Assembly (NCBI GenBank): GCA_027083035.1
Contig: JALWSY010000183.1
Coordinates: forward strand, 1 to 35,187
Direction: 5' to 3'
Length of the DNA stretch: 35,187 bases
Source of the DNA: Sulfurimonas sp.
Lineage (GTDB): Bacteria > Campylobacterota > Campylobacteria > Campylobacterales > Sulfurimonadaceae
The position numbers and the translations under genes are program-made. The notes under the pieces were generated by a model. It saw only the letters and a list, made by a program, of their open reading frames with translations, ran no database searches and had not been told where the DNA came from. Shown here one piece after another: positions 9,049 to 22,666 of the stretch (its first letter is position 1; the number at the start of each line of letters is the position of its first letter).

Positions 9049-9474
9049 TTAATTCACAAGCTTAGCGCAGGTTGAGTTTGTAGTGTCACAAGTAAACTTT
9101 CCATTTGAACGAGTATATGTAAAAAGAACAGAGGTCGTTCCAGTTTTGAACTTATACTTATTTAGTGCTGCAGACTCTGAAACTTTATGCCAGCCACCAT
9201 TATCTGTGCTATCTTTGACGCCATATCCCAAAACACCACCAAAAAGACCTCCACTATTTAACGCTGTTCCGGAGATATACTTAGAATCACCTTTAATAAG
9301 ACGATTTTGGCGCTCTGTTATGATACCTGAACGGATAGAAGCTACATCAGCTTTTCCTTTAGCTATAGTTGCATCAGCCTTGGAGGCAGAAAATCTAGGA
9401 ACTGCTACAGAAGCAAGGATACCAAGCACGACGATAACAAATATCATCTCTAACATTGTAAATGCATTTTTCAT
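9049..9474 (-). CDS. Type IV pilin/type II pseudopilin-like protein
   Basis: A 141-aa prepilin-like protein. Its N-terminus (MKNAFTMLEMIFVIVVLGIL) is a very short leader followed by the methylated-Phe hydrophobic helix with Glu5, the hallmark of type IV pilins and pseudopilins cleaved by PilD. The residue before the cleavage site is Ala rather than the usual Gly, which PilD-type peptidases tolerate. The C-terminal TCDTTNSTCAK could form a small disulfide loop. Ribosome site AAGGA lies upstream of the ATG. It sits between the second pilin-like gene, separated by a terminator, and priA. Likely part of a DNA-uptake or secretion pseudopilus. Confidence 0.88.
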   Translation of the reverse strand: MKNAFTMLEMIFVIVVLGILASVAVPRFSASKADATIAKGKADVASIRSGIITERQNRLIKGDSKYISGTALNSGGLFGGVLGYGVKDSTDNGGWHKVSESAALNKYKFKTGTTSVLFTYTRSNGKFTCDTTNSTCAKLVN

Positions 9475-9510
9475 ATTTTTTCCTTCGCTGCGGAATCTAA
9501 ATGGGCAGAA

Positions 9511-9547
9511 TAAAAAGAGTAAGAGGAGGTTGCAACTCCTTCTTACT
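9511..9547 (-). terminator. Intrinsic terminator between the two pilin-like genes
   Basis: An inverted repeat of about 15 bp with one mismatch and two wobble pairs (AGTAAGAGGAGGTTG against CAACTCCTTCTTACT, 9518-9547) is followed on the minus strand by CTTTTTATT. It ends the 9882-9589 pilin-like transcript, giving high or separate expression of that gene relative to the downstream pilin and priA. Confidence 0.75.
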
Positions 9548-9588
9548 TAGAAAGAGTTGCAGCTAACATGGAACAAACTGACTAGCGA

Positions 9589-9882
9589 TTAGTCCATATG
9601 TTTCACATCACCATTTGGTAATGTAACTGTCGTTGCAGTTGCAGCAGTTACACCACTACATCCCTCAAAAGTTTTTACTTTAGTAAGAGAATTCACAGTA
9701 TTTGGATCATTAAAGTATGCACCTCTCAACCCTTGAATACAAGTCTGTGAGTCTTGATCTTTTTTAGCATTCTCAGCATCTGCTTTTGATTGTGTTAATC
9801 TTGGAACCGCAACTGCAGCCAAAATACCTAAAATAACGATAACGAAGACCAATTCGATCATAGTAAAACCAGCTCTTTTCAT
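9589..9882 (-). CDS. Type IV pilin/pseudopilin-like protein, short
   Basis: A 97-aa prepilin-like protein starting MKRAGFTMIELVFVIVILGILAAVAVPR: the leader ends in Gly, then the FTMIEL helix with Glu5, the canonical PilD site. I chose ATG at 9882 because AAGGAG lies 6 bp upstream; an in-frame start at 9918 would add twelve residues in front of the leader. The globular part has two cysteines (SQTCIQGL and FEGCSG), probably a disulfide-closed loop. It is short for a major pilin. A CATAAT sequence about 50 bp upstream may be its -10, and a strong terminator follows, so it is probably its own transcript. Confidence 0.87.
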   Translation of the reverse strand: MKRAGFTMIELVFVIVILGILAAVAVPRLTQSKADAENAKKDQDSQTCIQGLRGAYFNDPNTVNSLTKVKTFEGCSGVTAATATTVTLPNGDVKHMD

Positions 9883-10040
9883 AAAGAACTCCTTAATTGA
9901 AATATTTGGATTACACAAGTAATCTTAAGTGTCATTATGAGCCTAATTTGTTTAAAGTTTGCTTAAATCTACTCTTTTTAGCTCATTTTATTTAAAATTT
10001 CAAATAAACCTATCATAATATTCACTTATATTATAAAATG

Positions 10041-10096
10041 ATGTAATCACTTTGTCACTTAAAGGAAATAGAGCTGTAATCTCTCTGTTTTATACT
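10041..10096 (+). promoter_or_regulatory. Pho-box-like direct repeats before the lipoprotein gene
   Basis: Four half-sites on one 11-bp grid: ATGTAAT (10041), TTGTCAC (10052), then one skipped turn, CTGTAAT (10074) and CTGTTTT (10085). PhoB binds 7-bp CTGTCAT-like half-sites repeated every 11 bp, so this looks like two adjacent Pho boxes. TATACT (10091-10096) is a possible -10, about 30 bp before the lipoprotein ATG at 10127. The exact promoter is not certain because the last half-site touches it. Confidence 0.6.
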
Positions 10097-10126
10097 TCGC
10101 CAAATTTAAATACGGAGTTATTCAAC

Positions 10127-11254
10127 ATGACAAAATCAGTAAAGCAAATCGTTCCAAGTCTTTTAGTAGCAGCACTCGTTGCATCATTTACAGGGTGTGG
10201 AGGAAGTAATGACTCTAGTTCACCAGCTACATCGACTACACAAACAGAAACTACTTCTGCAACCACAACGACAGAGACTACAACAACAGATAATAAAGTA
10301 GCACTCTCTGGAGAGATAGTAGCAGACAAAACACTTACAGCAGACAAGGTATGGGTTATTCATGGTATGGTAACTGTCAAAAATGGTGCTACACTTACTA
10401 TTGAACCGGGGACTACCATTCTTGGAAAAGCTGGAACGGGTGCGAACTCTTCTTATATGGTTATAGATAAAGGCGCGAAAATCATGGCAGAGGGTACAGC
10501 CGACAAGCACATCCTTTTTACTTCAGAGACTGCTTATGACACAGGTGTAGAGGCTGCTGGTCAATGGGGTTCTTTAGTTATCATCGGAAATGCTGCAAAT
10601 GCACAGGTTGAGCCTTATGAAGTAAATCCTGACTTTGTTGCAGGTGAGTCAAATATGGCAGATAACTCTGGTGTATTAAAGTATGTAGATCTTTATAACT
10701 CAGGAATTACTATAGAGGAGAACAAAGAGCTCAATGGTCTCTCTTTAGTTGGTGTTGGTTCAGGGACTACTATTGATAACTTGAGAGTTGAGAGATCTGA
10801 TGATGACTGTGTTGAAATCTGGGGTGGTACTGTAAACTTAAGCAATGTTACTGTTGCTGGCTGTACAGATGATCAGTTTGATATTGATGATGGTTTCTCT
10901 GGAACTGTCACTAACCTTACGATTAATCAAACTACTGGAAATGCTGGTATTGAGATGAGTGGTGAAACGCATGCTACCTTTGATGGATTTACTATCAATG
11001 TAAGTGAGTCTGTAAAAGAGGGTGGCATTTACTTCAAAAAAGATGGTATCGGTGGTATCTTTAAAAATGGTACAATCAACTACAATACTCCTGAAAATGG
11101 GTATGGTGCTATCCACTCAAAAGGAACATTTGACTCTGCAAATACCTCTTTTACAAATGTAACTTTAGCTGGTTCTAATCCTGATAAATTTACTGGTGCT
11201 TCTGCAAGTGGACTAGAGACTGCTTTTACTGCAGGAAGTGGAAATAAAAAATAG
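10127..11254 (+). CDS. Beta-helix lipoprotein preceding TonB operon
   Basis: A 375-aa lipoprotein. The signal peptide ends in lipobox FTGC with Cys24, followed by a Thr/Ser-rich linker (about 28-55) and then a domain rich in G-A-T-L-T-I-E-P-G-T motifs typical of right-handed parallel beta-helices (VHGMVTVKNGATLTIEPGTT-like start near 80). The repeated turns with Asn/Asp/Gly run to the C-terminus. I chose ATG 10127, which has CGGAG about 9 bp upstream; an in-frame start at 10052 would bury the signal peptide. Pho-box-like repeats lie just upstream and the TonB system follows, so a substrate-capturing surface role under phosphate limitation is plausible. No enzymatic motif is recognised. Confidence 0.8.
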   Translation: MTKSVKQIVPSLLVAALVASFTGCGGSNDSSSPATSTTQTETTSATTTTETTTTDNKVALSGEIVADKTLTADKVWVIHGMVTVKNGATLTIEPGTTILGKAGTGANSSYMVIDKGAKIMAEGTADKHILFTSETAYDTGVEAAGQWGSLVIIGNAANAQVEPYEVNPDFVAGESNMADNSGVLKYVDLYNSGITIEENKELNGLSLVGVGSGTTIDNLRVERSDDDCVEIWGGTVNLSNVTVAGCTDDQFDIDDGFSGTVTNLTINQTTGNAGIEMSGETHATFDGFTINVSESVKEGGIYFKKDGIGGIFKNGTINYNTPENGYGAIHSKGTFDSANTSFTNVTLAGSNPDKFTGASASGLETAFTAGSGNKK

Positions 11255-11288
11255 TACGCTAAGTTAGGTTTCTACCTAACTTACAACT

Positions 11289-11337
11289 CTGTAACACAAA
11301 ATGTTACCTTGTCACCTTTTTGTAACTTTTATGTAAT
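11289..11337 (+). promoter_or_regulatory. Pho-box-like repeats before the TonB operon
   Basis: Five TGT-containing half-sites: CTGTAAC (11289), ATGTTAC (11301), TTGTCAC (11309), TTGTAAC (11320) and ATGTAAT (11331). The last three are exactly 11 bp apart, as in PhoB boxes, and the first two are 12 and 8 bp apart. TATATC (11357-11362) is a possible -10 before the DUF3450 ATG at 11393. A perfect hairpin (AAGTTAGG/CCTAACTT, 11261-11282) separates it from the lipoprotein gene, but it has no T-run. Confidence 0.6.
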
Positions 11338-11392
11338 CCTTCTAAAACCTCCCTTTTATATCATTTCACCATATATACCAAATGGAGAAATA

Positions 11393-12166
11393 ATGATTGT
11401 CAATCCCACAAAGATAACAACTGCCCTGCTTTTAAGTGCTACTTTATACTCACCCCTGTCCGCATCTAATACAAATGAAGAGCTTGTAAACTCTATTATC
11501 GCCCTGAGAGGAGATGTTGAAAATCTCTACACAGATATCAAGGAGAACAAGCAGAGATATAACGCACAGATGAAATCACTCTCTATGCAGATCACAGACT
11601 CCCAAGCGCAAATAAATAGAAAAACAACAACTATCAAACTTGCTAAAAATGAGCTAGAAAAAATCAAACTAAAAATAGAAGAGACAGCTACTGGAAACTC
11701 AGAGATGAGACCTCTTGTTATGAATGCGCTTTCACTTTTAGAGACAAGTATCAAAGAGGGTATTCCTTTTATGGTAGAGCAGAGAGTTGCAGACCTACAT
11801 AAAATAGAGTCGGACTTAAAAGCTGGTGTGATTACAAATGAGAAAGCACTTGCGCTTACTTGGGCAAGTTATGATGACCTCATCCGTCTTACAAAAGAGA
11901 TAGGTATCTTTAAACAGCAGATAGAGTTTGGAGGTAAAAAAGTTTTAGCGAAGGTTGCAAAGCTTGGTTCTGTTGCTCTTTTCTTCTCTACTCCAAATGA
12001 AGCAGTTGGTTTTGTGGTTAAAGAGGGAAACACTTACGCATACAAACATATAACAGATCCAGAAGATAGTAAAAAAATAGTAGCACTCTTTGATGCACTA
12101 CAAAAACAGATTCGTACAGGCTACTTTGAACTACCAAATGCCCTAGTTTTACAGGAGAGTAAATAA
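11393..12166 (+). CDS. DUF3450 family periplasmic protein
   Basis: A 257-aa exported protein with a signal peptide (MIVNPTKITTALLLSATLYS) and a long coiled-coil region (about 30-105). The body resembles DUF3450, with segments such as RPLVMNALSLLETSIKEGIPFM and RVADLHKIESDLKAG. In marine gammaproteobacteria DUF3450 is the first gene of TonB2-type clusters ahead of the long ExbB (TtpC-like), ExbB, ExbD, TonB and a TPR protein; the same order follows here. The role is probably periplasmic, helping the energy-transducing complex. I chose ATG 11393 with GGAG upstream, since a start at 11309 would place about 28 odd residues before the signal peptide. The stop overlaps the next ATG (TAATG). Confidence 0.82.
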   Translation: MIVNPTKITTALLLSATLYSPLSASNTNEELVNSIIALRGDVENLYTDIKENKQRYNAQMKSLSMQITDSQAQINRKTTTIKLAKNELEKIKLKIEETATGNSEMRPLVMNALSLLETSIKEGIPFMVEQRVADLHKIESDLKAGVITNEKALALTWASYDDLIRLTKEIGIFKQQIEFGGKKVLAKVAKLGSVALFFSTPNEAVGFVVKEGNTYAYKHITDPEDSKKIVALFDALQKQIRTGYFELPNALVLQESK

Positions 12167-13476
12167 TGCAAAAAATTCTAATCACATTTCTACTACTAAT
12201 GAGTACACTTTTAAGTGCTGATGAACTTTACAATGCTTACCAAAAAGAGTTTACATTTTTAAAAGCACAAAAATCAGAACTGCAAAAAAGAGCAGCCAAA
12301 GAGAAAGCTTTTCAAACAAAAGAACTCGCAAAAGCAAAAGCGAAAGTACAGCGTCTTCAAAACAGACTTGTAGAGCTTTCACAAACAAACCAAAATATCC
12401 AGAAGCAGATAGAGAAGTCTGGTGTAATGCTTGATGATAAAAAATCAAACAAAGAGATCTCTGCAAGTGTTCTTATTCAAGCTGCTTCACTACTTGGTGA
12501 TTACAAGATTCATGTAGATGACTCAAAAAATGCAGACATTATCGCAGTCATGCAACAAGCTTTTGAAGATGCATCACAACTCTATAAAAAACTCTCTTCA
12601 CGACAAGTGGTAGATGGAAAATTTTATCTCATAGATGGAACAACGGCTGAGGGGAAGATAGTCAAAATTGGCAATATCGCAGCCTATGGTATCTCAAAAA
12701 ATGTCGCTGGCACTCTTGCTCCCGCAGGAAATGGTGAGTATAAAATTTGGAACAAAGATACAACTGCAGATGCCCAAGCGATGTTAGCAGGAAAGAAGAC
12801 AAAAGAGTTAAAAATATTTATCTATGAAAACTTAGATAAAGATGTAGAATATACAAAAGAGAAAACACTTCAAGATACACTTGATGGTGGGGGAACTATT
12901 GGGTATATCATCTTAGCACTTGGAGCTTTAGGTCTGCTTCTAATTTTGCTAAGAGTTATACTGCTTACACTTGCAGGTTCAAATGTCAAAAAGATTACTG
13001 ATATTGTAATCAAAAAAGTGGAGAGTGGCAAAGCCAATGAAGCACTTGATGCAGTAAAAGGCTTTAAAGGTGCTACTGCTCGTGTTATCAAAGCGACACT
13101 AAGAAATATAGACAGAGATAGAGATCATATTGAAGATATCGTAACAGAGAACATCTTAAATGAGAGCTCGAACATCGATAGATTTGGTAACTTTGTACTT
13201 GTTCTTGCCGCTGTTGCGCCACTTCTAGGTCTGCTTGGAACGGTAACGGGTATGATCGCTACTTTTGATATCATCACTACGCATGGTACGGGAGATCCGA
13301 AGCTTTTAAGTGGTGGTATCTCTGAAGCGCTAGTAACTACAATGCTTGGTCTTATCGTTGCAATTCCTCTACTTCTTTTAGGAAACTTACTGAGTGGTTG
13401 GGCGCAGAGTATTAAAGACTCTATGGAGCAGAGTGCGCTTCATATCGTAAACCTTTTTGAGATAAACAAAGCATAA
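12166..13476 (+). CDS. TtpC-like long MotA/TolQ/ExbB proton-channel protein
   Basis: A 436-aa protein with a signal peptide (ends about residue 18), a periplasmic coiled-coil domain rich in Lys/Ala/Gln (about 20-90), a further periplasmic domain, and then a MotA/TolQ/ExbB channel domain from about 240. In that domain the hallmark helices APLLGLLGTVTGMIATFD (about 350-367) and EALVTTMLGLIVAIPLLLLGN are visible. Vibrio TonB2 systems need the same extra ExbB-like subunit (TtpC) alongside a normal ExbB, which follows here with a one-base overlap. Likely sits in the inner membrane and couples the TonB motor to the periplasmic partner DUF3450. Confidence 0.9.
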   Translation: MQKILITFLLLMSTLLSADELYNAYQKEFTFLKAQKSELQKRAAKEKAFQTKELAKAKAKVQRLQNRLVELSQTNQNIQKQIEKSGVMLDDKKSNKEISASVLIQAASLLGDYKIHVDDSKNADIIAVMQQAFEDASQLYKKLSSRQVVDGKFYLIDGTTAEGKIVKIGNIAAYGISKNVAGTLAPAGNGEYKIWNKDTTADAQAMLAGKKTKELKIFIYENLDKDVEYTKEKTLQDTLDGGGTIGYIILALGALGLLLILLRVILLTLAGSNVKKITDIVIKKVESGKANEALDAVKGFKGATARVIKATLRNIDRDRDHIEDIVTENILNESSNIDRFGNFVLVLAAVAPLLGLLGTVTGMIATFDIITTHGTGDPKLLSGGISEALVTTMLGLIVAIPLLLLGNLLSGWAQSIKDSMEQSALHIVNLFEINKA

Positions 13477-14081
13477 TGGAAGCACTACTCATCTACTGGG
13501 GGCAGTTCTTACACTTTATGAACTCTGGGGGAGCTATCATGTGGGTACTTTTTATCTTAAACCTTTTTCTTTGGTATGGATTAGGGTACAGATACCTCAC
13601 ACTCAAGCGTGGAACACAGGGAAATGTACGAAGACTTATAGAGAAACATGAAAAAAGAGGCGATAAAAAAGTCTATAAGGGTCTGCTTGATTTTGCAGTC
13701 CATGATGCACTGCAAGCTGCGAAGGTAGCGAAGTCCATAGGGGAAAAACCAAGAGAGTATATTTATGATGTACTCTTTGTTTACATGAGAGTTACCTCAA
13801 AGTACTCTACTTTGGTAAAAACCATAGTGATGCTCGCACCACTTGTCGGGTTACTAGGAACAGTTATAGGGATGATAGAGACATTTGATGCACTCCAATC
13901 AAGTGCGATGTTCTCTCAAGGTGATTCAATTGCCGGTGGTATTTCAAAGGCACTCTTTACAACAGAACTTGGTTTAGTTGTAGCCGTTCCCGGGTTAATC
14001 TTTGGAAAAATACTCGATAGACAAGAAAATCAGTACGACTTAGAGTTTGAACAGATAGTGGACATTATAAGTACAAAATAG
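13476..14081 (+). CDS. exbB: Biopolymer transport protein ExbB
   Basis: A 201-aa inner-membrane proton channel subunit of the TonB motor. Three transmembrane helices are visible (about 18-38, 108-130 and 158-178) with the signature APLVGLLGTVIGMIETFDAL (about 121-140) and the last helix ISKALFTTELGLVVAVPGLIFG. Length and topology fit ExbB2 of TonB2-type clusters rather than TolQ, since ExbD and TonB follow and no TolA/B/Pal does. Start overlaps the TtpC-like stop by one base. Confidence 0.92.
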   Translation: MEALLIYWGQFLHFMNSGGAIMWVLFILNLFLWYGLGYRYLTLKRGTQGNVRRLIEKHEKRGDKKVYKGLLDFAVHDALQAAKVAKSIGEKPREYIYDVLFVYMRVTSKYSTLVKTIVMLAPLVGLLGTVIGMIETFDALQSSAMFSQGDSIAGGISKALFTTELGLVVAVPGLIFGKILDRQENQYDLEFEQIVDIISTK

Positions 14082-14095
14082 ATAAAGGATAAAAA

Positions 14096-14500
14096 ATGAG
14101 ATTTAGACAAAAGCAACAAAATGTAGATACGGTGGATGTTTCGCCACTCATAGATATGGTTTTTATTCTCCTTATCTTTTTTATGGTGACAACAACCTTT
14201 GTCAAAGATATGCAACTTGAACTCAACCGTCCCTCAGCGGCTTCTGCATCACTGGCTTCAACAAAAGTTCTTCGTGTTTACATTGATAACACAAGTGAGA
14301 TCTACATAGATAACCAAGCTCTGAAACTTTGGGCGATTCAGAGTAAACTCAGAGACCTACTCAAAACATCTACTGAAAAATCTGTTCTTGTTATCACAGA
14401 TGGTGACATCCCTGTAAATGTACTTATAGATGTAATAGATGAAGTGAAAATGAGCGGTGCCAAAGATGTAGCCGTTTCAACCACTAAAGAGATGGGATAA
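14096..14500 (+). CDS. exbD: Biopolymer transport protein ExbD
   Basis: A 134-aa ExbD. Short cytoplasmic N-terminus, then one transmembrane helix with the proton-carrying Asp in SPLIDMVFILLIFFMVTTTF (Asp20), and a periplasmic domain with the DGDIPVNVLIDVIDEVKMSGA segment near the C-terminus. Ribosome site AAAGGA is 6 bp upstream of the ATG. The stop overlaps the tonB start by one base. Confidence 0.93.
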   Translation: MRFRQKQQNVDTVDVSPLIDMVFILLIFFMVTTTFVKDMQLELNRPSAASASLASTKVLRVYIDNTSEIYIDNQALKLWAIQSKLRDLLKTSTEKSVLVITDGDIPVNVLIDVIDEVKMSGAKDVAVSTTKEMG

Positions 14501-15126
14501 TGAAATACAGCACAAAAGGAAGAGCTTTTGGAGCACTCTTAAGTATGCTTTTTGGAGCACTTTTGATGATAGTTTTAGTTATCTCTTTTAACAAAAGCGT
14601 CCAAGAGAAAGAGCCAAAGGTAAAAAAAGAGGTTCGTACTATGAAGGCGGCAAAGACGCACAAAAAAGCAAACAAGCCCAAACCAAAGCCGAAGCCAAAA
14701 CCAAAAAAAGCACAGCCAAAAGCACCACTACCAAATATGAACTCGCTTCTTGGTGGTGTGGCGATGCAAATACCTGAGTTTGAGACAGAAGATATTGCAG
14801 GGGATTCAAGTAAATTACTTGAGAGTATCGCTGAAGATGCCATCATGAATGAGAACACAGTAGATGTAAAACCAAAAGTACTATCTCGCTCACCTCTAGA
14901 GTATCCCCAAGCTGCCCTCAAAGATGGCATCAAGGGGTATGTAATTATTAATATTTTAATCGCTAAAGATGGAAGCGTAGAGTTAGCAAAAGTTTTAGAC
15001 GCACAACCAAGTGGTGTGTTTGATGCAGCAGCACTGGGTGCTGTTCGTTCGTGGAGATTCTCTCCTGCTATGTATAAAGCGAAGCCTGTTAAGATGTGGG
15101 CAAAACAAAAAATTAAATTTCAGTAG
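14500..15126 (+). CDS. tonB: Energy transducer TonB
   Basis: A 208-aa TonB. One N-terminal transmembrane helix (about 10-30), a periplasmic Lys/Pro-rich spacer with five Lys-Pro pairs (about 58-75), and a C-terminal TonB domain (about 125-208) with PLEYPQAALKDGIKGYVIIN, DGSVELAKVLDAQPSGVFD and AVRSWRFSPAM. This domain contacts the TonB box of receptors. The spacer is shorter than in E. coli TonB, a trait of TonB2-type proteins, whose reach is thought to be aided by extra partners such as TtpC. Confidence 0.93.
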   Translation: MKYSTKGRAFGALLSMLFGALLMIVLVISFNKSVQEKEPKVKKEVRTMKAAKTHKKANKPKPKPKPKPKKAQPKAPLPNMNSLLGGVAMQIPEFETEDIAGDSSKLLESIAEDAIMNENTVDVKPKVLSRSPLEYPQAALKDGIKGYVIINILIAKDGSVELAKVLDAQPSGVFDAAALGAVRSWRFSPAMYKAKPVKMWAKQKIKFQ

Positions 15127-15134
15127 GGATAGAG

Positions 15135-16406
15135 ATGATAAAAAATATACTACTTACACTTTCACTCCTTCTTTTGATGCAGAGTTCACTCTTTGCTCAA
15201 AAGCAGAGTGAAGATATGGTTGACCACCTCGCTCTGGCAACACTTATGATATATGATGCAAGATATGACAAAGCGCAAGAGGAGTTAGCCCTTGTAAACA
15301 AAAAGAGTCCAAAGTTTGATGCTGCGAAATACTACTCTGTTGCAGCGGTCTTTTACTCCGAACAAAAAGAGACAAAAAAAGCGATAACATCATATAAAAA
15401 AGCGATAGAAGCAACAAAGGTTAAAAAATTTGTAGCACCAAAGATAGAGACAAAAGAGAAGTATCTCTTCTCTATCGCAAGTGATACACAAGAGAAGCAA
15501 AAAGTAGCTCCTTTTGATGCACAAAAGAAACGCCAAGAGAAACTCTCAGAACTCTATATGTTTATAACACAGGAGTACTACAGACTCAAAGATTATAAAA
15601 ACACAGTCGCTTCACTTGAGGCTGCACAAGAGAGGGGAAAGAGTCGTGCAGGACTCTTTACACTTCGTGCTGAGTGTTACTATAAACTTAAGGAGTACTC
15701 CCAAGCAATAGAAGCACTTAACGATGGTATCACAAGATTTCCTGATGATGCGACACTTCTCAAGCAGAAGTTCTACTACTTTGCAGATCTCAAACTCTAC
15801 CAAGCAGCTATTGATGCTGCGAAGGTTTATATGGCTAAGGTTGGTGTGAGTTCTGCTGAGTATATTGCTCTTTCACAAATGCTTATCAGTGCAAACCAGA
15901 TAGAGAGTGCCATCAAACTTTTAGAGGAGTCTAAACTCAAGTTTCCTAGTGATGCAAAGATTGGCATTTTACTCGGACACATGTACCTCAAAAAAGGGAT
16001 GAAAAATACAACTGCGCATCTTTTTGAAGAGAGTTCATACTACGATAAAGAGTACTTAAAGGATGCAGTGGAGATGAACAGACGCGCTGGAAATAATCTA
16101 CACGCTCTGTATCTCAATGCACAAAATATTGACAAGGTAGAGAAACTCAAACAAAAAATAGCTATCTACCTCAACGCTGAGGAGTATAGAAAAATTATTG
16201 GCTTACAAAAAGCACTCAAGCGCTACAAGATGCTCGATGATGATAACCTACGCTATGCCCTCGCCTACTCTTACTATATGGCAGGTGATTATACAAATGC
16301 AGAGAATCAACTCAAGTTTATCTCCGACAGTGAGCTCTTCTCAAAAGCAACAGTCATTCGTAAAAATATAGAAAAATGTACTAATAATACGCTGGAGTGT
16401 CTCTAA
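15135..16406 (+). CDS. Exported TPR-repeat protein of TonB2-type operon
   Basis: A 423-aa protein with a signal peptide (MIKNILLTLSLLLLMQSSLFA) and multiple TPR-like helical pairs, for example RYDKAQEELALVNKKSP (about 38-54), EYSQAIEALNDGITRFPDD (about 190-208) and an incomplete set near the C-terminus around AYSYYMAGDYTNAENQLKFI. A TPR protein commonly closes DUF3450/TtpC/ExbB/ExbD/TonB clusters and probably scaffolds periplasmic contacts. GGGAT lies upstream of the ATG. Its stop overlaps the receptor start. Confidence 0.85.
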   Translation: MIKNILLTLSLLLLMQSSLFAQKQSEDMVDHLALATLMIYDARYDKAQEELALVNKKSPKFDAAKYYSVAAVFYSEQKETKKAITSYKKAIEATKVKKFVAPKIETKEKYLFSIASDTQEKQKVAPFDAQKKRQEKLSELYMFITQEYYRLKDYKNTVASLEAAQERGKSRAGLFTLRAECYYKLKEYSQAIEALNDGITRFPDDATLLKQKFYYFADLKLYQAAIDAAKVYMAKVGVSSAEYIALSQMLISANQIESAIKLLEESKLKFPSDAKIGILLGHMYLKKGMKNTTAHLFEESSYYDKEYLKDAVEMNRRAGNNLHALYLNAQNIDKVEKLKQKIAIYLNAEEYRKIIGLQKALKRYKMLDDDNLRYALAYSYYMAGDYTNAENQLKFISDSELFSKATVIRKNIEKCTNNTLECL

Positions 16407-19400
16407 TGAAACAACTACTAAAACTACTCACTCTACTCTTTTTACTTAGTAGTGGAGTCCAAGCTGAAGATACAGGTTCGGCTTCTATATTTTCATTTTT
16501 TAATGGAATCGCTTTGGAGAACAATGAAGTGCTTGTTGATGGTGAAGATAAATACTTTACCGATGAGGATGGATGTGCTGAGATTATCTTAGAGGTTGGG
16601 AAACATCAAGTAGAGATATTTGCTAAAGATGCAGAGGGACATAATCTCGGTTATGCCAAAAAGAGCATAGAGATTAAAGACTCTCGTGATACACAGTTTA
16701 TCGCTACTTTTAATGACAAAAGTGCTGTTCCTTATATAGAAGTCGATACACCTATTGGTGAGGGAGATGTAAACTTAGATGATACTCAAAGAGTAGGAAC
16801 ACTAAATGGTCTTATCTTGACATCGGATAAGTCGCTACCTATTGCCAATGCAAGGATTTTTGTAAAGGGAAGCTCTCTTGAGGCAAGAAGTGATGCAGAG
16901 GGAAAATTTACTATTGAGATTCCCGCAGAGCGAAATATTAGTATTTCTGTTGTTCATTCAGAGTATAGTGCACAAAATGTTGAGAACTTAATAGTAAGCA
17001 CTAATGCAGTCATAAACACTACTGTAAAACTAACACCTGCAAGTATGGAACTTGAAGAGTTTATCGTTTTAGCACCAAAAGTAAAAGGCTCCATCGCTAG
17101 TATCATGGCAGAAGAGAAGGCGACTAGTGCCATTACAAACATAGTCGGTGCAGCGGAAATGTCTAAGAAGGGTGACTCAACTGCTGCTGGAGCACTCAGA
17201 CGTGTAACGGGTGTAACACTTGTTGGAGGTAGAGATATCTATGTGCGTGGTTTGGGTGGTCGTTACTCAAACATAGAGATGAACTCAATGCCTCTTCCAT
17301 CTCCTGATCCACAAAGAAGAACTGTGCCTCTTGATATCTTTCCTGCAGCTGTTATTGGCTCGATGAAAGTACAAAAGAGTGCTACTGCTGACATCCCTGC
17401 ATCATTTGGTGGGGGATATGTTGACATTAGAACAAAAGATAAATCAGAAGAGAACTATTTTAAAGTAACTACTGAGCTTAAAGCAAACTCATTTACAGGC
17501 AAAGAGGTAAACTCTTATGCTGGAAGTTCTACTGACTACTTAGGGAGTGATGATGGGTATAGAGCTATTCCGGCTCAGATTATGAATGATGCAAAGATTG
17601 TTGTGGGAGAGAGTGTACCTAGTTTTGACCCTGCAAATAATGAGGCCTATACCAAAGCCATCACAAACAGACTCTTTACAACAACAAAAGAAAATCTACC
17701 AGTCGGTGGAAAATTTACTCTTGAAGGTGCCTATAACCTAAAGATTGCAGAGAAACATGAACTCTCATTTTTTGCAAACTATGCCTATGGTCAAAATCAT
17801 ATCGCTAGAGAGGAGGAGTACTTCACTTATGACTACAACAAAGAGATAGACTCTCTCTACAAAGACCCTGAACAGTTTGGTGACAACTATACAACACTCA
17901 ACAGATACACCAATGCGGGTATTTTTAATGTTCACTATAACTATGCCGATGTTTTTAATCTCAAGTTTACAAAACTCTACTCGAAGATATCTGAAAAAGT
18001 TACAAAAATCTCTGATGGTATAGCCAACTCTGATGATGATTGGAAGATACGCTATGACTTAAACTGGGAAGAGAGAACTCTTGATGCCAATCAGCTCAAT
18101 GGTGATACAAAGTTTGCAATAGCAAACTTTGAGAACTTTTTACACTTTGGTGCTGAATATGCCACAGCAGACCTTGACCAACCTGCAAACTATAAATATG
18201 CTTATCTCAGAGATATTCGTTTTGATGGTGTGGTGCGCGGAGAGCCATATCTTGATAGATTCTCACCCAATGCTTTTTTAAATCTTACTTCAGAGGATAC
18301 AATGATGGCATTTTATCTCAAAAACAGAACCATGCTTGCACTCTTTCATGAAAAGGATTACTTTGAGATAGGTATGAGTGGGAGTACAAAAGAGAGAGCA
18401 TCTCGATATAACAAGTTTATGATGCAAAAAACAACATCTGATACAGGGGAGAACAAACTCACAGATGATATTGATACAATTTATAATACACATATCCGAA
18501 ACAACTATGATGCAACATTTCGACTTGACATCGCCTTTCAACCTGCTTACTGGTATGATGCAGCAGTAGATGAGAGTAGTTATTATGCCAAACTATTTCT
18601 CAATCCTACAAAAGAGCTAGAGATTTTACTCGGTGCAAGGCAGACAAACTTTCAACAAACAGTATACCAGTACACAAACAATGACAATGCACTCTCTCCT
18701 ATACAGAGAGTACCTGAGTCACTCTCATTTAACCAGCTCCTTCCTGATGTAGGGTTAAAATATAAATTTGACAGAGATAATCAAATCAATTTTGCATTTT
18801 CTCAGACCTATATTGTTCCAGATTTACGCGAGTTTACAAGTGCTGAATATTTTCACCCCTATGAAGTGGCAACAGTAAAAGGAAACCCTAATCTTCTCAA
18901 TACAGACATTATGAACTATGACTTAAAATACTCTCACTACTTCTCAGCGAGTGAAAATATAAATGCAGGTCTCTTTTATAAGTACCTCGATAAACCCATA
19001 GAGGATGTGATGCTCCCCTCCTCCTCTCTGCCGAGATATGGATATGATAATGCAGATAATGCGGTTTTATATGGTTTTGAAATAGATGGCAGAAAAAATC
19101 TTGACTTTATAAATAAGGGACTCAAAAACTACTACATCGGTGGAAATTTCTCCTATACTAAGTCTGAAGTAACACTCAGACAAGAGCAAGAAAAGCTCTA
19201 TACAAACAACTATAGAGAGCTACAAGGACTCTCGCCAATCGTCATAAATATCTCTACAGGCTATGAGTCCAAAGGGAGAAATGTAACACTCTCTTATAAT
19301 AAAATGGGAGAGAGAATCCGTAAAGTCGGCATGATAGATGGCAATGATGAGTATCCTGACTACTACGAAATACCACCACAGATTTTAGACTTTGTCTGGA

Positions 19401-19552
19401 TAGAGAGTTTTGAAAATGGATTAAGCTTTAAACTGAAACTACAAAACCTGCTTGATGAAGAAACCATCTGGTATCAGGGAAGCAAAGAGAATATCACCAA
19501 TAGATTTAGAGTTGGAAGATTTTACTCTTTGGCTGCATCTTACAAGTTCTAG
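16406..19552 (+). CDS. TonB-dependent outer-membrane receptor
   Basis: A 1048-aa outer-membrane transporter. It has a signal peptide (ends near residue 21), a beta-sandwich segment (about 30-105), a CarboxypepD_reg-like domain (about 130-215, VGTLNGLILTSDKSLPIANARI...), a possible TonB box LEEFIVLAP (about 218), a plug domain (TSAITNIVGAAEMSKKGDSTAAGALRRVTGVTLVGGRDIYVRGLGGRYSN begins it) and a 22-strand-type barrel that ends in aromatic YSLAASYKF. I chose ATG 16406, which overlaps the TPR stop (TAATG) and has GGAG 8 bp upstream; a GTG at 16397 would add three residues. It likely imports a phosphorus compound, inferred only from the regulation. Confidence 0.9.
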   Translation: MKQLLKLLTLLFLLSSGVQAEDTGSASIFSFFNGIALENNEVLVDGEDKYFTDEDGCAEIILEVGKHQVEIFAKDAEGHNLGYAKKSIEIKDSRDTQFIATFNDKSAVPYIEVDTPIGEGDVNLDDTQRVGTLNGLILTSDKSLPIANARIFVKGSSLEARSDAEGKFTIEIPAERNISISVVHSEYSAQNVENLIVSTNAVINTTVKLTPASMELEEFIVLAPKVKGSIASIMAEEKATSAITNIVGAAEMSKKGDSTAAGALRRVTGVTLVGGRDIYVRGLGGRYSNIEMNSMPLPSPDPQRRTVPLDIFPAAVIGSMKVQKSATADIPASFGGGYVDIRTKDKSEENYFKVTTELKANSFTGKEVNSYAGSSTDYLGSDDGYRAIPAQIMNDAKIVVGESVPSFDPANNEAYTKAITNRLFTTTKENLPVGGKFTLEGAYNLKIAEKHELSFFANYAYGQNHIAREEEYFTYDYNKEIDSLYKDPEQFGDNYTTLNRYTNAGIFNVHYNYADVFNLKFTKLYSKISEKVTKISDGIANSDDDWKIRYDLNWEERTLDANQLNGDTKFAIANFENFLHFGAEYATADLDQPANYKYAYLRDIRFDGVVRGEPYLDRFSPNAFLNLTSEDTMMAFYLKNRTMLALFHEKDYFEIGMSGSTKERASRYNKFMMQKTTSDTGENKLTDDIDTIYNTHIRNNYDATFRLDIAFQPAYWYDAAVDESSYYAKLFLNPTKELEILLGARQTNFQQTVYQYTNNDNALSPIQRVPESLSFNQLLPDVGLKYKFDRDNQINFAFSQTYIVPDLREFTSAEYFHPYEVATVKGNPNLLNTDIMNYDLKYSHYFSASENINAGLFYKYLDKPIEDVMLPSSSLPRYGYDNADNAVLYGFEIDGRKNLDFINKGLKNYYIGGNFSYTKSEVTLRQEQEKLYTNNYRELQGLSPIVINISTGYESKGRNVTLSYNKMGERIRKVGMIDGNDEYPDYYEIPPQILDFVWIESFENGLSFKLKLQNLLDEETIWYQGSKENITNRFRVGRFYSLAASYKF

Positions 19553-19553
19553 T

Positions 19554-19587
19554 TTGTAATCAAAAAGTAACCTGATGTACCTATAAT
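19554..19587 (+). promoter_or_regulatory. Pho-box-like promoter of first response regulator
   Basis: Half-sites TTGTAAT (19554) and AAGTAAC (19565) lie 11 bp apart. A perfect TATAAT (19582-19587) follows 10 bp after the second, the classic Pho promoter spacing in which the box replaces the -35. Six bases separate TATAAT from ATG 19594, so the predicted transcript starts at that ATG and is leaderless. It supports self-regulation by the PhoB-type gene. Confidence 0.65.
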
Positions 19588-19593
19588 ATGCCT

Positions 19594-20268
19594 ATGAATA
19601 ATAAAATAATAGTTATAGAAGATGAAGAGGATTTGCTCGACTTACTGGAGTACAACCTGAGTAAAGAGGGGTTTGATGTTGTTGGCTTTTTACATACTAA
19701 TACAGCTTCCAAAATACTCGAAGAGGAGGAGATTGACCTCATTATCATGGATAGAAATCTACCGGGGGTAGAGGGGAGTGAGTATATCAAAGAGTTACGA
19801 GAAGATGGCATACAGATACCCGTCATCTATCTCACAGCAAAAGATAAAGAGCGTGAAATAGAGGAGGGATTTTTAAGTGGTGGTGATGACTATATGACAA
19901 AACCCTTTAACATGAGAGAACTTATACTGCGTATAAAATCTATTCTCAAACGCACAAAACGCATTTTAAATGAAGGTTCTCTTCGCCATCGTGATCTGCT
20001 CTTAGATTTAGGCTCTCGAACACTGCAGATAGAGAAACAAAGTGTATCTATAACAAAACTAGAGTTTGACCTTTTACATGAGTTCATTCGTAATAAAAAT
20101 AGTATCTTAGATAGAGATTATCTCCTAGAGAATGTGTGGCAAGATGTGCAAGAGAGAGAATACAAAACAGTCAATGTAGCCATTACACGACTCAAAGTGA
20201 AGATAGATCCAAAGAAAACAAAAAATTATATCCAGACTATTCGTGGAGTCGGTTATAAACTTTCCTAA
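19594..20268 (+). CDS. PhoB/OmpR-type response regulator 1
   Basis: A 224-aa two-component regulator. Receiver domain (1-120) has the acidic pair E9-D10, phosphorylation site D53 in LIIMDRNLPG, Thr in YLTAKD and Lys in MTKPF. The C-terminal winged-helix DNA-binding domain (about 130-224) ends TVNVAITRLKVKIDP...TIRGVGYKLS, typical of OmpR/PhoB. I chose ATG 19594 over 19588: 19588 directly abuts TATAAT, and 19594 aligns with residue 1 of the next gene, giving D53 in both. A leaderless mRNA with Pho box is predicted. No histidine kinase is adjacent. Probably controls the TonB operon upstream. Confidence 0.92.
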   Translation: MNNKIIVIEDEEDLLDLLEYNLSKEGFDVVGFLHTNTASKILEEEEIDLIIMDRNLPGVEGSEYIKELREDGIQIPVIYLTAKDKEREIEEGFLSGGDDYMTKPFNMRELILRIKSILKRTKRILNEGSLRHRDLLLDLGSRTLQIEKQSVSITKLEFDLLHEFIRNKNSILDRDYLLENVWQDVQEREYKTVNVAITRLKVKIDPKKTKNYIQTIRGVGYKLS

Positions 20269-20277
20269 AGGGATACA

Positions 20278-20958
20278 ATGAAAGAACAGATACTCATCAT
20301 AGATGATGATAGTGATATTTTAGAACTGCTTGAGTATAACCTCAGTGATGCAGGATATGATGTACTTGGATTTTTAAGTACAAAAAATGTACGCACCGCT
20401 CTGCTACAAGAGGATATACGCCTTATCATCATAGATAGAAATTTGCCTGATATTGAGGGGAGTTACTATATCGAGATGCTTCGTAGTAAAAATATCAATA
20501 CACCTGTCATTATGCTCTCTGCAAAAAACTCTATAGAGGAGATACGAGAGGGGTTTGTCAAAGGTGCTGATGATTACATCACGAAACCTTTTGATATGCA
20601 AGAGCTTATCTTACGAGTAAAAGCTATTTTAAAAAGAAGTGGCTCTGAGCAAAAAGAGCTTGTAGAAAATATAAGTTACAGAGATTTAAAGCTTGACTTA
20701 AATATGCATACAGTGACCATTAATACTAAAGAGATTACCCTTACAAACCTAGAAACTACCCTCCTTCAGATTCTACTACTTAACAAAGGGAAAGTGCTTG
20801 ATAGAGAGTTTTTACTCCAACATGTCTGGAGAGACACACACTCTATTCACCATAAAACTGTCAATGTAGCTATAAAAAGGCTCAAGGAGAAAATAGACCC
20901 ACACAAAGAGAAAGAGTATATAAAAACTATTCGAGGTGTTGGGTATTTAGTAGCATAA
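20278..20958 (+). CDS. PhoB/OmpR-type response regulator 2 (tandem paralogue)
   Basis: A 226-aa two-component regulator, clearly a duplicate of the preceding gene: same length, same LLEYNLS motif near residue 20, D53 in LIIIDRNLPD, MLSAKN, ITKPFDMQELILRVK, and the winged helix ending TVNVAIKRLKEKIDP...TIRGVGYLVA. It lies 9 bp after the first, with AAAGGGAT as ribosome site, so both are cotranscribed. The two may bind related sites or form different partners. No kinase is encoded next to them; the sensor must be elsewhere, or they act without one. Confidence 0.92.
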   Translation: MKEQILIIDDDSDILELLEYNLSDAGYDVLGFLSTKNVRTALLQEDIRLIIIDRNLPDIEGSYYIEMLRSKNINTPVIMLSAKNSIEEIREGFVKGADDYITKPFDMQELILRVKAILKRSGSEQKELVENISYRDLKLDLNMHTVTINTKEITLTNLETTLLQILLLNKGKVLDREFLLQHVWRDTHSIHHKTVNVAIKRLKEKIDPHKEKEYIKTIRGVGYLVA

Positions 20959-21007: not shown

Positions 21008-22666
21008 ATGGCACATAGACTCACTCATACTTTCAAGTTTACAACACAATCTACAGAGGATGTGAACACAACACTTTACAATATTATCTATATTAGTGAA
21101 GAGGATGAAAAAAAACACTTTGTGCAATATATACAGTATGAACTAGTTGATGAAAAGTATATTATGCTTTCTCAAGTTAATGTTAAAGTTGATAGAGCTT
21201 ACTATTTAGAAATCGCAAATATATGCTTAGATGAGCGAGAGAGACGACGCTACCTCTTCTCCATACTTGGTAAACGTCGTTTTGGCGCAAATAGCAGAAG
21301 ATATGACTACTATCTTCTCCACAAAAAGCATACCCCAGAAGAGCTAGAAGAGGAGTATGAAACTTTTAGTGATGCAAACTCCTTCAAGCCTTGCTATACT
21401 GAAAAAACTGACTACTCTCTCAATGAATACCGTGTTCATTCCATTAAAAAAGAGACATCTTACATTCTATTTTTAGATCAGATAAATACTACTCAAAGAA
21501 AAAGACTACATAAAATATTTTGTGTAGAACTATCGCTTGAAGATTATAACTACTTTGCAAAAATCGAAAAAGGCAAAAAGAGAGTAAACTACCTTTTTAA
21601 CAAAATAGGAAAAATCTACTTCAAGTCTTTACAAAAAGAACAACTCGCACTCAAAGAACCACTTACCTCTCATGAGGAGTTAGCACTCTCTAAGCTTGTC
21701 ACCTCTGCGCAAGCACTTGAGAAGAGTTCAAGAGTAAATGATAATACTACTTTTAGAAAACTTCAAGAGAAAGAGGATGTTCTCTGTAATGGCGATTTAT
21801 GCCTCCATACAAGCTGTTTTTCACTTATGAACAACCCATCAGATACCCAAACTATAAAACTTTTTCAGAGTGCTTTAGATGTATTTATTCTACATACCAA
21901 AGGTATGTCGCAACTCGATGAGATTATCACCTATTTTCAAAAAATAAATGAACTTGTAGAGGCTGGTACAATCGCCTATCTACTCGCAAAAAATGATAAT
22001 GATATAAAAGATATATTTCTCTATATGCTAGAATCTTTTACAGCTTGGAATGATGCACTCTATCATACTAAAGATGAAGATGTTAAAGCCTTCAATACTG
22101 CCACAATTGACTTAGCAGACTCTCTGCGATACCTTGTAGATGTCTGTTATAAATTCAAACACGAGTACAAATGTATAGAGGTTGAAAAAGAGCAAGAACT
22201 CAAGCAGGAAAATACCTATGTTATCACCTCTGCGAAAGACTATTTTGATGATGTTGAAATTGATTCAGAGATATATGATGAGCTTCACGAATTGGAGCGA
22301 GAGGTAGATATACTCAACTATTCAGAGAGTTACACCTATGAACTTCACGAGAAATTGATTCGATTTTTTGACGGATATACAAGCGCTCTCAATCCACTCT
22401 TTGAGTTCAAAGACTTAAGTTACTCACTAATGCTACTGAGTCAAAAACTCTCCGAGTACGAGATTGAAGAGAACTCAGCCATCTTACTAGAACTTATGCG
22501 AGGACTAGTATCTGATTTGATGGAGTGGAAAAAGAGTGTTTTAGTAGAGCAGAGTGCCGAAGATATTCATTATATGGACAAATCTTTCTACTCAAACATA
22601 GCACAAATCGAGATGTCCATAGAGCATAGTGAATTTGTAGATGATGATGCAATAGAGTTTTTTTAA
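21008..22666 (+). CDS. Unrecognised 552-aa protein
   Basis: I do not recognise this protein. It has no signal peptide or transmembrane helix, so it is probably cytoplasmic. The N-terminal half (1-260) is mixed charged, with basic clusters (ERERRRYLFSILGKRRFGANSRR near 76-98) and a pair of Cys-containing segments (DVLCNGDLCLHTSCFS near 258-273, three cysteines). The second half (about 280-552) is almost all helical and strongly acidic, with three long helical bundles ending DDDAIEFF; such helical layouts occur in signalling scaffold or HPt-like proteins, but no phospho-His motif is identified. It has its own promoter. It lies after the regulators, convergent with the omp gene, 3 bp apart. Confidence 0.85.
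   Translation: MAHRLTHTFKFTTQSTEDVNTTLYNIIYISEEDEKKHFVQYIQYELVDEKYIMLSQVNVKVDRAYYLEIANICLDERERRRYLFSILGKRRFGANSRRYDYYLLHKKHTPEELEEEYETFSDANSFKPCYTEKTDYSLNEYRVHSIKKETSYILFLDQINTTQRKRLHKIFCVELSLEDYNYFAKIEKGKKRVNYLFNKIGKIYFKSLQKEQLALKEPLTSHEELALSKLVTSAQALEKSSRVNDNTTFRKLQEKEDVLCNGDLCLHTSCFSLMNNPSDTQTIKLFQSALDVFILHTKGMSQLDEIITYFQKINELVEAGTIAYLLAKNDNDIKDIFLYMLESFTAWNDALYHTKDEDVKAFNTATIDLADSLRYLVDVCYKFKHEYKCIEVEKEQELKQENTYVITSAKDYFDDVEIDSEIYDELHELEREVDILNYSESYTYELHEKLIRFFDGYTSALNPLFEFKDLSYSLMLLSQKLSEYEIEENSAILLELMRGLVSDLMEWKKSVLVEQSAEDIHYMDKSFYSNIAQIEMSIEHSEFVDDDAIEFF

Follow-up and report, generated by a model that had tools for sequence, protein, structure and literature searches.

A candidate phosphate-starvation uptake island with a TonB2-type motor and orphan PhoB paralogs in Sulfurimonas

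Introduction

How phosphorus compounds that are too large or too scarce for porins pass the outer membrane of Gram-negative bacteria is poorly known. A 35,187-nucleotide stretch of DNA from the sulfur-oxidising bacterium Sulfurimonas sp. (contig 183 of a draft genome of 2.29 Mb, hereafter the window) raises the question of whether such a route might be encoded in a single block: ten genes, all on the plus strand and spanning positions 10127-20958, combine a lipoprotein, a TonB-type motor, a TonB-dependent transporter (TBDT, here also called the receptor) and two PhoB-like regulators. An earlier reading of the bare sequence, referred to below as the original prediction, had proposed that this island answers to phosphorus limitation and controls itself.

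The gene content, boxes, promoter geometry, synteny, paralogy and co-inheritance computed here lead us to favour, with a probability of about 0.75, an outer-membrane acquisition system belonging to the Pho regulon. The proposal of phosphorus control has held up very well, and phosphate-starvation control of the island is highly probable, given boxes shared with the pst and porin genes, the neighbourhood in relatives, the paralogy of the regulators to PhoB, and co-inheritance. As a candidate for such a route the island is both powered and complete: its motor, receptor, surface protein and regulators stand in one block, which is conserved in many Campylobacterota and, in parts, in three other groups. 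It also connects the orphan phosphate-starvation lipoproteins ElpS of Caulobacter and FI of Flavobacterium to a receptor and a motor, behind promoters that can be tested.

Results and Discussion

Layout of the island

The genes run in the order lipoprotein, DUF3450/TtpB, TtpC, ExbB, ExbD, TonB, tetratricopeptide-repeat protein (TPR)/TtpD, TBDT, regulator 1 (RR1) and regulator 2 (RR2). That they form a contiguous, single-strand series with tight overlaps, as first described, is borne out by their coordinates and by the identities assigned in Pfam and NCBIfam profile searches. The features are as follows; statements on Vibrio TtpB2 and TtpD2 refer to PMC6957404.

10042-10096, plus strand: Pho-box array before the lipoprotein gene (half-sites TGTAAT at 10042, TGTCAC at 10053, TGTAAT at 10075; 16.7 bits)
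10127-11254, plus strand: lipoprotein of 375 residues, right-handed beta-helix, by analogy ElpS/FI-type (lipobox FTGC in the translation; AlphaFold2 model; beta-helix matches)
11260-11283, plus strand: 10-bp hairpin between lipoprotein and DUF3450 genes (-14 kcal/mol, z -4.05; no T-run)
11310-11364, plus strand: Pho-box array before the DUF3450 gene (TGTCAC at 11310, TGTAAC at 11321, TGTAAT at 11332, TAAAAC at 11343; 16.1 bits)
11393-12166, plus strand: DUF3450 protein, TtpB (PF11932, 1.9e-25; the only copy in the genome; TtpB2 is a DUF3450 protein)
12166-13476, plus strand: TtpC-like ExbB with a long periplasmic N-terminal domain (MotA_ExbB, 5.3e-28, residues 304-421)
13476-14081, plus strand: ExbB (MotA_ExbB, 1.7e-22)
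14096-14500, plus strand: ExbD (PF02472, 1.2e-27)
14500-15126, plus strand: TonB (PF03544, 2.2e-19; one of the genome's 3 TonB_C proteins)
15135-16406, plus strand: TPR protein, TtpD (TPR families; TtpD2 is a TPR protein)
16406-19552, plus strand: TonB-dependent receptor of 1048 residues, CarboxypepD_reg and plug domains (Plug, 5.2e-10; CarbopepD_reg_2, 1.1e-9)
19555-19587, plus strand: Pho box before regulator 1 (TGTAAT at 19555, AGTAAC at 19566; -10 TATAAT at 19582-19587; 15.1 bits)
19588-20268, plus strand: regulator 1, orphan PhoB paralog (Response_reg and Trans_reg_C; PhoB TIGR02154, 184 bits)
20278-20958, plus strand: regulator 2, orphan PhoB paralog (Response_reg and Trans_reg_C; TIGR02154, 172 bits; within a 21-row RR2 clade, support 100/99)

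Neighbouring genes overlap by 1 nucleotide at DUF3450/ttpC, ttpC/exbB, exbD/tonB and TPR/TBDT, and the remaining gaps from DUF3450 through regulator 2 measure 8-41 nucleotides; because of these overlaps, the part of the island that follows the lipoprotein gene is read as one operon. The lipoprotein gene itself is probably a separate transcription unit, since both the strong hairpin, a possible processing or attenuation site, and a second box stand between it and the DUF3450 gene. Regulator 1 has its own promoter very near its start, for which ATG 19594 is the more likely codon; its message would then perhaps be nearly leaderless. Rfam and tRNA scans of the window gave no matches.

Pho boxes common to the island and the pst locus

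The original prediction had placed PhoB-like sites with an 11-bp period before the lipoprotein, DUF3450 and regulator 1 genes. All three score 15-17 bits with an independently obtained 25-bp weight matrix, which was trained solely on 17 sites upstream of pst and porin genes of relatives. Read from the sequence, each site keeps an 11-bp register and is followed by a -10-like hexamer exactly 10 bp past the last half-site, which is the build of PhoB promoters in E. coli: in the lipoprotein promoter this is TATACT at 10091-10096, and before the DUF3450 gene, where overlapping flanking matches score 12.9 and 13.0 bits, it is TATCAT at 11359-11364. By the weight matrix, regulator 2 lacks a box (-5.6 bits).

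A strict pattern search of the 2.29-Mb genome for TGTMAY-N5-TGTMAY returned 17 matches (12 forward, 5 reverse) versus 5 for the reversed control pattern. The island accounts for three of the 17, and two more fall within the pst locus (contig 8), which, from its translations, encodes PstS, an outer-membrane porin, PstC, PstA, PstB, PhoU, PhoB and PhoR. The box of the island thus recurs within this genome in the promoters of pstS, the porin gene and pstC.

Box frequencies in relatives were computed after removal of duplicate genomes, at a weight-matrix threshold of 10 bits or more. A box precedes 58% of the lipoprotein genes, 54% of the DUF3450 genes, 43% of the regulator genes that follow the TBDT and 82% of the pst and porin genes, compared with 5% of the remaining genes of those loci; dinucleotide shuffles reach the threshold in at most 0.5%. 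Most of the remaining genes that do have a box encode porins, phosphatases or phosphoesterases, or EAL-domain proteins. Conservation of the cluster without its repeats, the outcome that the original prediction had named as speaking against it, is thus not what the relatives show. Furthermore, where hexamers occur in pairs ahead of cassette genes, the distances between them show sharp maxima at 11 and 22 bp.

The geometry of these promoters points the same way. A -10-like hexamer stands exactly 10 bp past the second half-site in 13/13 regulator, 20/27 pst or porin and 9/15 other sites. For the lipoprotein and DUF3450 genes, it stands at +10 or +21 (10+11) in 15/46 and 15/38 sites, respectively. 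The regulator promoters of 15 relatives share the 10-bp placement, and their second half-site is systematically degenerate (TGATAT, TGAAAT, AGTAAC), with the consensus in only 1/15, a pattern compatible with a weaker site that would fire later. This degeneracy, together with the 50-bp gap filter that was applied, accounts for the finding of a strict hexamer pair in only 1/35 regulator promoters. A generic sigma-70 scan gave matches at the level of shuffled sequence, as expected if PhoB replaces the -35 element. The conserved box and -10 element of regulator 1 also support the earlier suggestion of self-control.

Two PhoB paralogs inherited with the receptor

The best NCBIfam match of both regulators is PhoB. 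The TIGR02154 scores of RR1 and RR2 and that of the genome's pst-linked PhoB (171 bits) all fall below the equivalog cut-off of 296 bits. The three proteins are 50-54% identical to one another (52% for regulator 1 and PhoB) and about 26-35% identical to the genome's other regulators. Together with the PhoBs of relatives linked to phoU, phoR or pst genes, they form one clade (48 rows, support 100/100), from which other OmpR-type regulators are excluded. The phosphoacceptor aspartate, the active-site acidic residues and the lysine are retained, and the recognition segment KTVNVAIKRLKE is the same in RR2 and PhoB and nearly the same in RR1.

Among 90 genomes of the genus, 24/25 that bear the receptor encode at least two PhoB-clade proteins (two or three), versus 3/65 that lack it (Fisher p about 1.6e-17, uncorrected for kinship). 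RR2 is more widespread than RR1, and two of the three receptor-less exceptions retain the RR2 type beside Pho genes: in one (G001) alongside genes for an OlsF-like and a GGDEF-EAL protein close to pst, and in the other (G013) with PhoX. A single PhoR match was found in 9/11 genomes checked, the other two having an extra partial or split match. Because PhoR is essentially single and the island carries no kinase gene, RR1 and RR2 are orphans that may share PhoR. The coupling of extra PhoB copies to one transporter offers a clear setting in which to study the sharing of a kinase and of binding sites among paralogous response regulators.

The cassette and its neighbours in relatives

A receptor search found the gene in 26/149 genomes, the window's own included. 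In addition, the lipoprotein alignment was run against a collection of 84,980 species genomes, which gave 382 confirmed relatives; 77 of their loci were examined. The presence of the lipoprotein or receptor in these loci follows from the search design; that of the other cassette genes does not. The seven-gene order is contiguous in 62 loci, with the lipoprotein immediately upstream in 49. Genes for Pst/PhoU, OlsF, PhoX or PHO4 occur in 25/80 of the loci stretches, or 50/80 when porins and PhoB-clade regulators are counted, where by a rough estimate a random 20-kb stretch would carry such phosphate genes in a few percent of cases. In two Halothiobacillaceae-type loci, the cassette is followed on the same strand by PstS, lipoprotein, pstC, pstA and pstB genes. 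PhoX or phosphoesterase genes lie near the loci of some relatives, and plasmid homologs in Pseudoalteromonas have the order DUF3450-ExbB-ExbB-ExbD-TonB-TPR-lipoprotein-TBDT.

OlsF, whose product is a phosphorus-free ornithine lipid, is a divergent neighbour in several Sulfurovum and related loci. Bifunctional ornithine lipid synthases of this type were identified by NCBIfam at L099:6805-8517 and L106:7842-9551, where the gene adjoins that of the lipoprotein divergently, and by Pfam domains at L194:8835-10553, near pst and RR2. EAL or GGDEF-EAL proteins are encoded at L080:15001-16824, L121:3260-5026 and L159:1942-2709, each with a Pho-type box of 12-15 bits upstream, and at L194:10575-12398, where the genome lacks the receptor and the protein's neighbours, close to pst, are RR2 and the OlsF-like gene. 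These genes hint at a link between phosphate starvation and cyclic di-GMP in this group.

Motor and receptor

In Vibrio vulnificus, TtpB2 (DUF3450) and TtpD2 (TPR) are required parts of the TonB2 motor (PMC6957404). For that reason, the six motor genes of the island form a complete, TtpC-containing TonB2-type set in one operon, and the motor would energise the receptor of the same operon. Two more TonB_C proteins and three more Plug proteins are encoded elsewhere in the genome, so the island motor need not serve all receptors. The segment EEFIVLAP is a possible TonB box of the receptor, the AlphaFold2 model of which (predicted local distance difference test score, pLDDT, 85.3) resembles solved TBDTs.

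The beta-helix lipoprotein

The likely start of the lipoprotein is ATG 10127 rather than TTG 10052, and by reading of the sequence it begins with a lipoprotein signal and lipobox, MTKSVKQIVPSLLVAALVASFTGC. It has no Pfam match and hence no match to the SusD family, and PDB sequence searches with it and with the receptor gave no matches. Its structure is confidently predicted to be a right-handed beta-helix (pLDDT 89.6). The nearest solved folds (Z about 20-24), a likeness of fold only, are alginate epimerases, polygalacturonases, lyases, tailspikes and other beta-helices. Across 62 beta-helix sequences, E165, E201, D226, D227, E230, W232, D248, D249 and D252 show no variation. The spacing of the two DD motifs, 22 residues or about one coil, suggests a metal- or ligand-binding face.

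In relatives, the beta-helix domain occurs in one to three tandem copies per protein; at L070:1174-4266 and L073:1136-4243, three near-identical copies are found in one protein. Three further genomes have solitary lipoprotein homologs apart from the TonB cassette (L200:7945, L201:8679 and L202:8118).

The lipoprotein and TBDT genes are paired in the window, in relatives and in the plasmid homologs, with the six motor genes intervening in the window. A Sphingomonas homolog (35% identity over 268 residues) lies in an ElpS-like arrangement of lipoprotein, TBDT and type II secretion system, and it is by description rather than by sequence that the protein is likened to ElpS and FI. The role of the lipoprotein, which the original prediction had called open, is thereby narrowed: by analogy, it is a phosphate-starvation lipoprotein of the ElpS/FI type.

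Relation to known systems

Each module of the island has a known counterpart. In Caulobacter crescentus, ElpS (CC_0170) is a surface lipoprotein made upon phosphate starvation and encoded beside the TBDT CC_0171, and the pair thus resembles the island in both respects; it is tied to a type II secretion system, and the available part of the report does not describe a dedicated TonB motor or an extra PhoB (PMC2996285). PhoB of Caulobacter controls several TBDTs (PMC11208175). In Flavobacterium, FI is the most strongly induced gene and the most abundant exoprotein under phosphate depletion, and FI-FIII were reported to be related to the Caulobacter low-phosphate lipoprotein (PMC8115612). PUSIII of Flavobacterium johnsoniae likewise joins a polygalacturonase-like lipoprotein (FI, Fjoh_3856) to a TBDT (Fjoh_3857), which has Plug and CarbopepD_reg_2 domains as in the window's receptor and is strongly induced by phosphate depletion; however, it is encoded with a sigma factor/FecR pair, and a TtpB-TtpC-ExbBD-TonB-TtpD operon is not listed (PMC8115612). 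The PusCD systems of Flavobacterium, which are SusCD-like, also combine a phosphate-induced TBDT with a surface lipoprotein, but their partner is of the SusD type (PMC8115612). A SusCD/PusCD-type system was rejected for the island, whose lipoprotein is a predicted beta-helix without a Pfam or SusD match.

The TonB2 and TonB3 systems of Vibrio have the same six-part motor of TtpB (DUF3450), TtpC, ExbB, ExbD, TonB and TtpD (TPR); TonB2 serves iron siderophores, and beta-helix lipoprotein or PhoB genes are not described with TonB2 or TonB3 in the available part of the source (PMC6957404). A similar cassette exists in Alteromonadales: plasmid pBGP9 of Alteromonas macleodii carries phoB-phoR-PstS-lipoprotein-TBDT-DUF3450-ExbB-ExbB-ExbD, the same modules, with a box-like site (20.1 bits) ahead of the lipoprotein gene, but differs in gene order, in having phoB with phoR instead of orphan paralogs, and in its receptor, which is only 27% identical.

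The original prediction had also held that such a combination seemed undescribed in Campylobacterota. This stands in that no description of the full combination, or of the co-inherited orphan PhoB copies, was found in the open-access literature, although earlier reports may exist elsewhere; nor were phosphate-linked TonB in Sulfurimonas, TtpC under phosphate limitation, or TonB3 with PhoB found described there. It does not extend to the parts, as the lipoprotein-TBDT pair is known to be phosphate-linked in Caulobacter and Flavobacterium and the Alteromonas cassette lies beside phoBR. Two features are new: in Campylobacterota the pair is combined with a complete motor of the TonB2 type, and orphan PhoB paralogs are inherited along with the system.

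What does the island import?

That the receptor imports a phosphorus-containing cargo is probable. Several observations weigh against the favoured explanation: the nearest solved structures of the receptor model are generic iron, heme, B12 and PQQ receptors, mostly iron and heme, which do not discriminate cargo; about 40-45% of the relatives' lipoprotein and DUF3450 genes lack a box above threshold; in many Sulfurovum loci no regulator gene accompanies the cassette; the CC_0171 gene of Caulobacter was reported to be expressed in rich and poor media (PMC2996285); and the window's island has no phosphatase gene, so that processing of organic phosphorus is not visible at the locus. This last point speaks for an alternative in which regulation is the same but the cargo, instead of organic phosphorus esters, is inorganic phosphate or polyphosphate, or a complex of phosphate with metal, the metal ion being held by the stacked invariant acidic residues of the lipoprotein. 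The eight invariant acidic residues, the DD motifs one coil apart and the direct operon with pstSCAB in the Halothiobacillaceae-type loci argue for such a cargo. Yet beta-helical enzymes that act on sugars, some of them among the closest folds, typically have such acidic clusters too, and PhoX or phosphoesterase genes do occur near some relatives. We consider this alternative rather unlikely.

The same resemblance to epimerases, polygalacturonases and lyases could mean that lipoprotein and receptor act in the release or display of surface proteins, or in glycan use, during phosphate stress. ElpS is shed from the Caulobacter surface and accompanies extracellular phosphatase activity (PMC2996285), and secretion of the Myxococcus protease PopC requires a TBDT (PMC6434023). 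A dedicated motor and receptor within the Pho regulon, in an operon with pstSCAB in some relatives, nevertheless fit import better, and a role outside phosphorus import is improbable. An iron or siderophore system that lies near phosphate genes by chance has even less to commend it. The six-protein motor does serve iron-siderophore uptake in Vibrio, and the receptor's nearest solved structures are mostly iron and heme receptors, but Vibrio TonB3 shows that such motors need not serve iron (PMC6957404 for both Vibrio systems), and the Flavobacterium lipoprotein-TBDT pair is induced under phosphate depletion only (PMC8115612). Since the island's boxes are common to pst and porin promoters and its neighbours are phosphate genes, an iron island was rejected.

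A possible two-tier phosphate response

In the phosphorus-acquisition mechanism that we infer, scarce phosphate would lead PhoR to activate PhoB, which would bind direct repeats of 11-bp period (TGTAAY) where a -35 element would otherwise stand, turning on three units: the beta-helix lipoprotein, the operon from TtpB to the TBDT, and regulator 1, with regulator 2 expressed by read-through from regulator 1. The lipoprotein, exported to the cell surface, would capture or process phosphorus-containing molecules; the motor (TtpB-TtpC-ExbB-ExbD-TonB-TtpD) would power the receptor, which would bring the cargo into the periplasm, where PstS would take over the phosphate. Regulators 1 and 2 would read the same boxes and probably share PhoR, giving a self-reinforcing second tier. 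More tentatively, and with somewhat less than even confidence, we propose a two-tier response in this genus, in which the orphan PhoB paralogs and the resident PhoB would rely on a single PhoR and on common boxes. The paralogs would regulate their own promoter by way of its systematically weakened second half-site and would pass through the genus together with the TonB system, the whole forming one heritable unit for scavenging.

Neighbouring genes

The pst contig of the genome also encodes, convergently to pstS (L066:2467-5846), another TonB-dependent receptor (683 residues) and a membrane protein that by eye looks PepSY-type. Close to its N-terminus, the pstC product (L066:8311-9303) contains a repetitive acidic insert (DDDDAMIADEDDMMLEDEDDMMLDDEDDE). 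Directly 3' of regulator 2, window positions 21008-22666 encode a 552-residue protein without a Pfam match, a 54% homolog of which sits between pstS and pstC in a relative (L088). Just upstream of the island, on the opposite strand (9049-9918), lie two small type IV pilin-like or pseudopilin-like proteins with FTMxE motifs.

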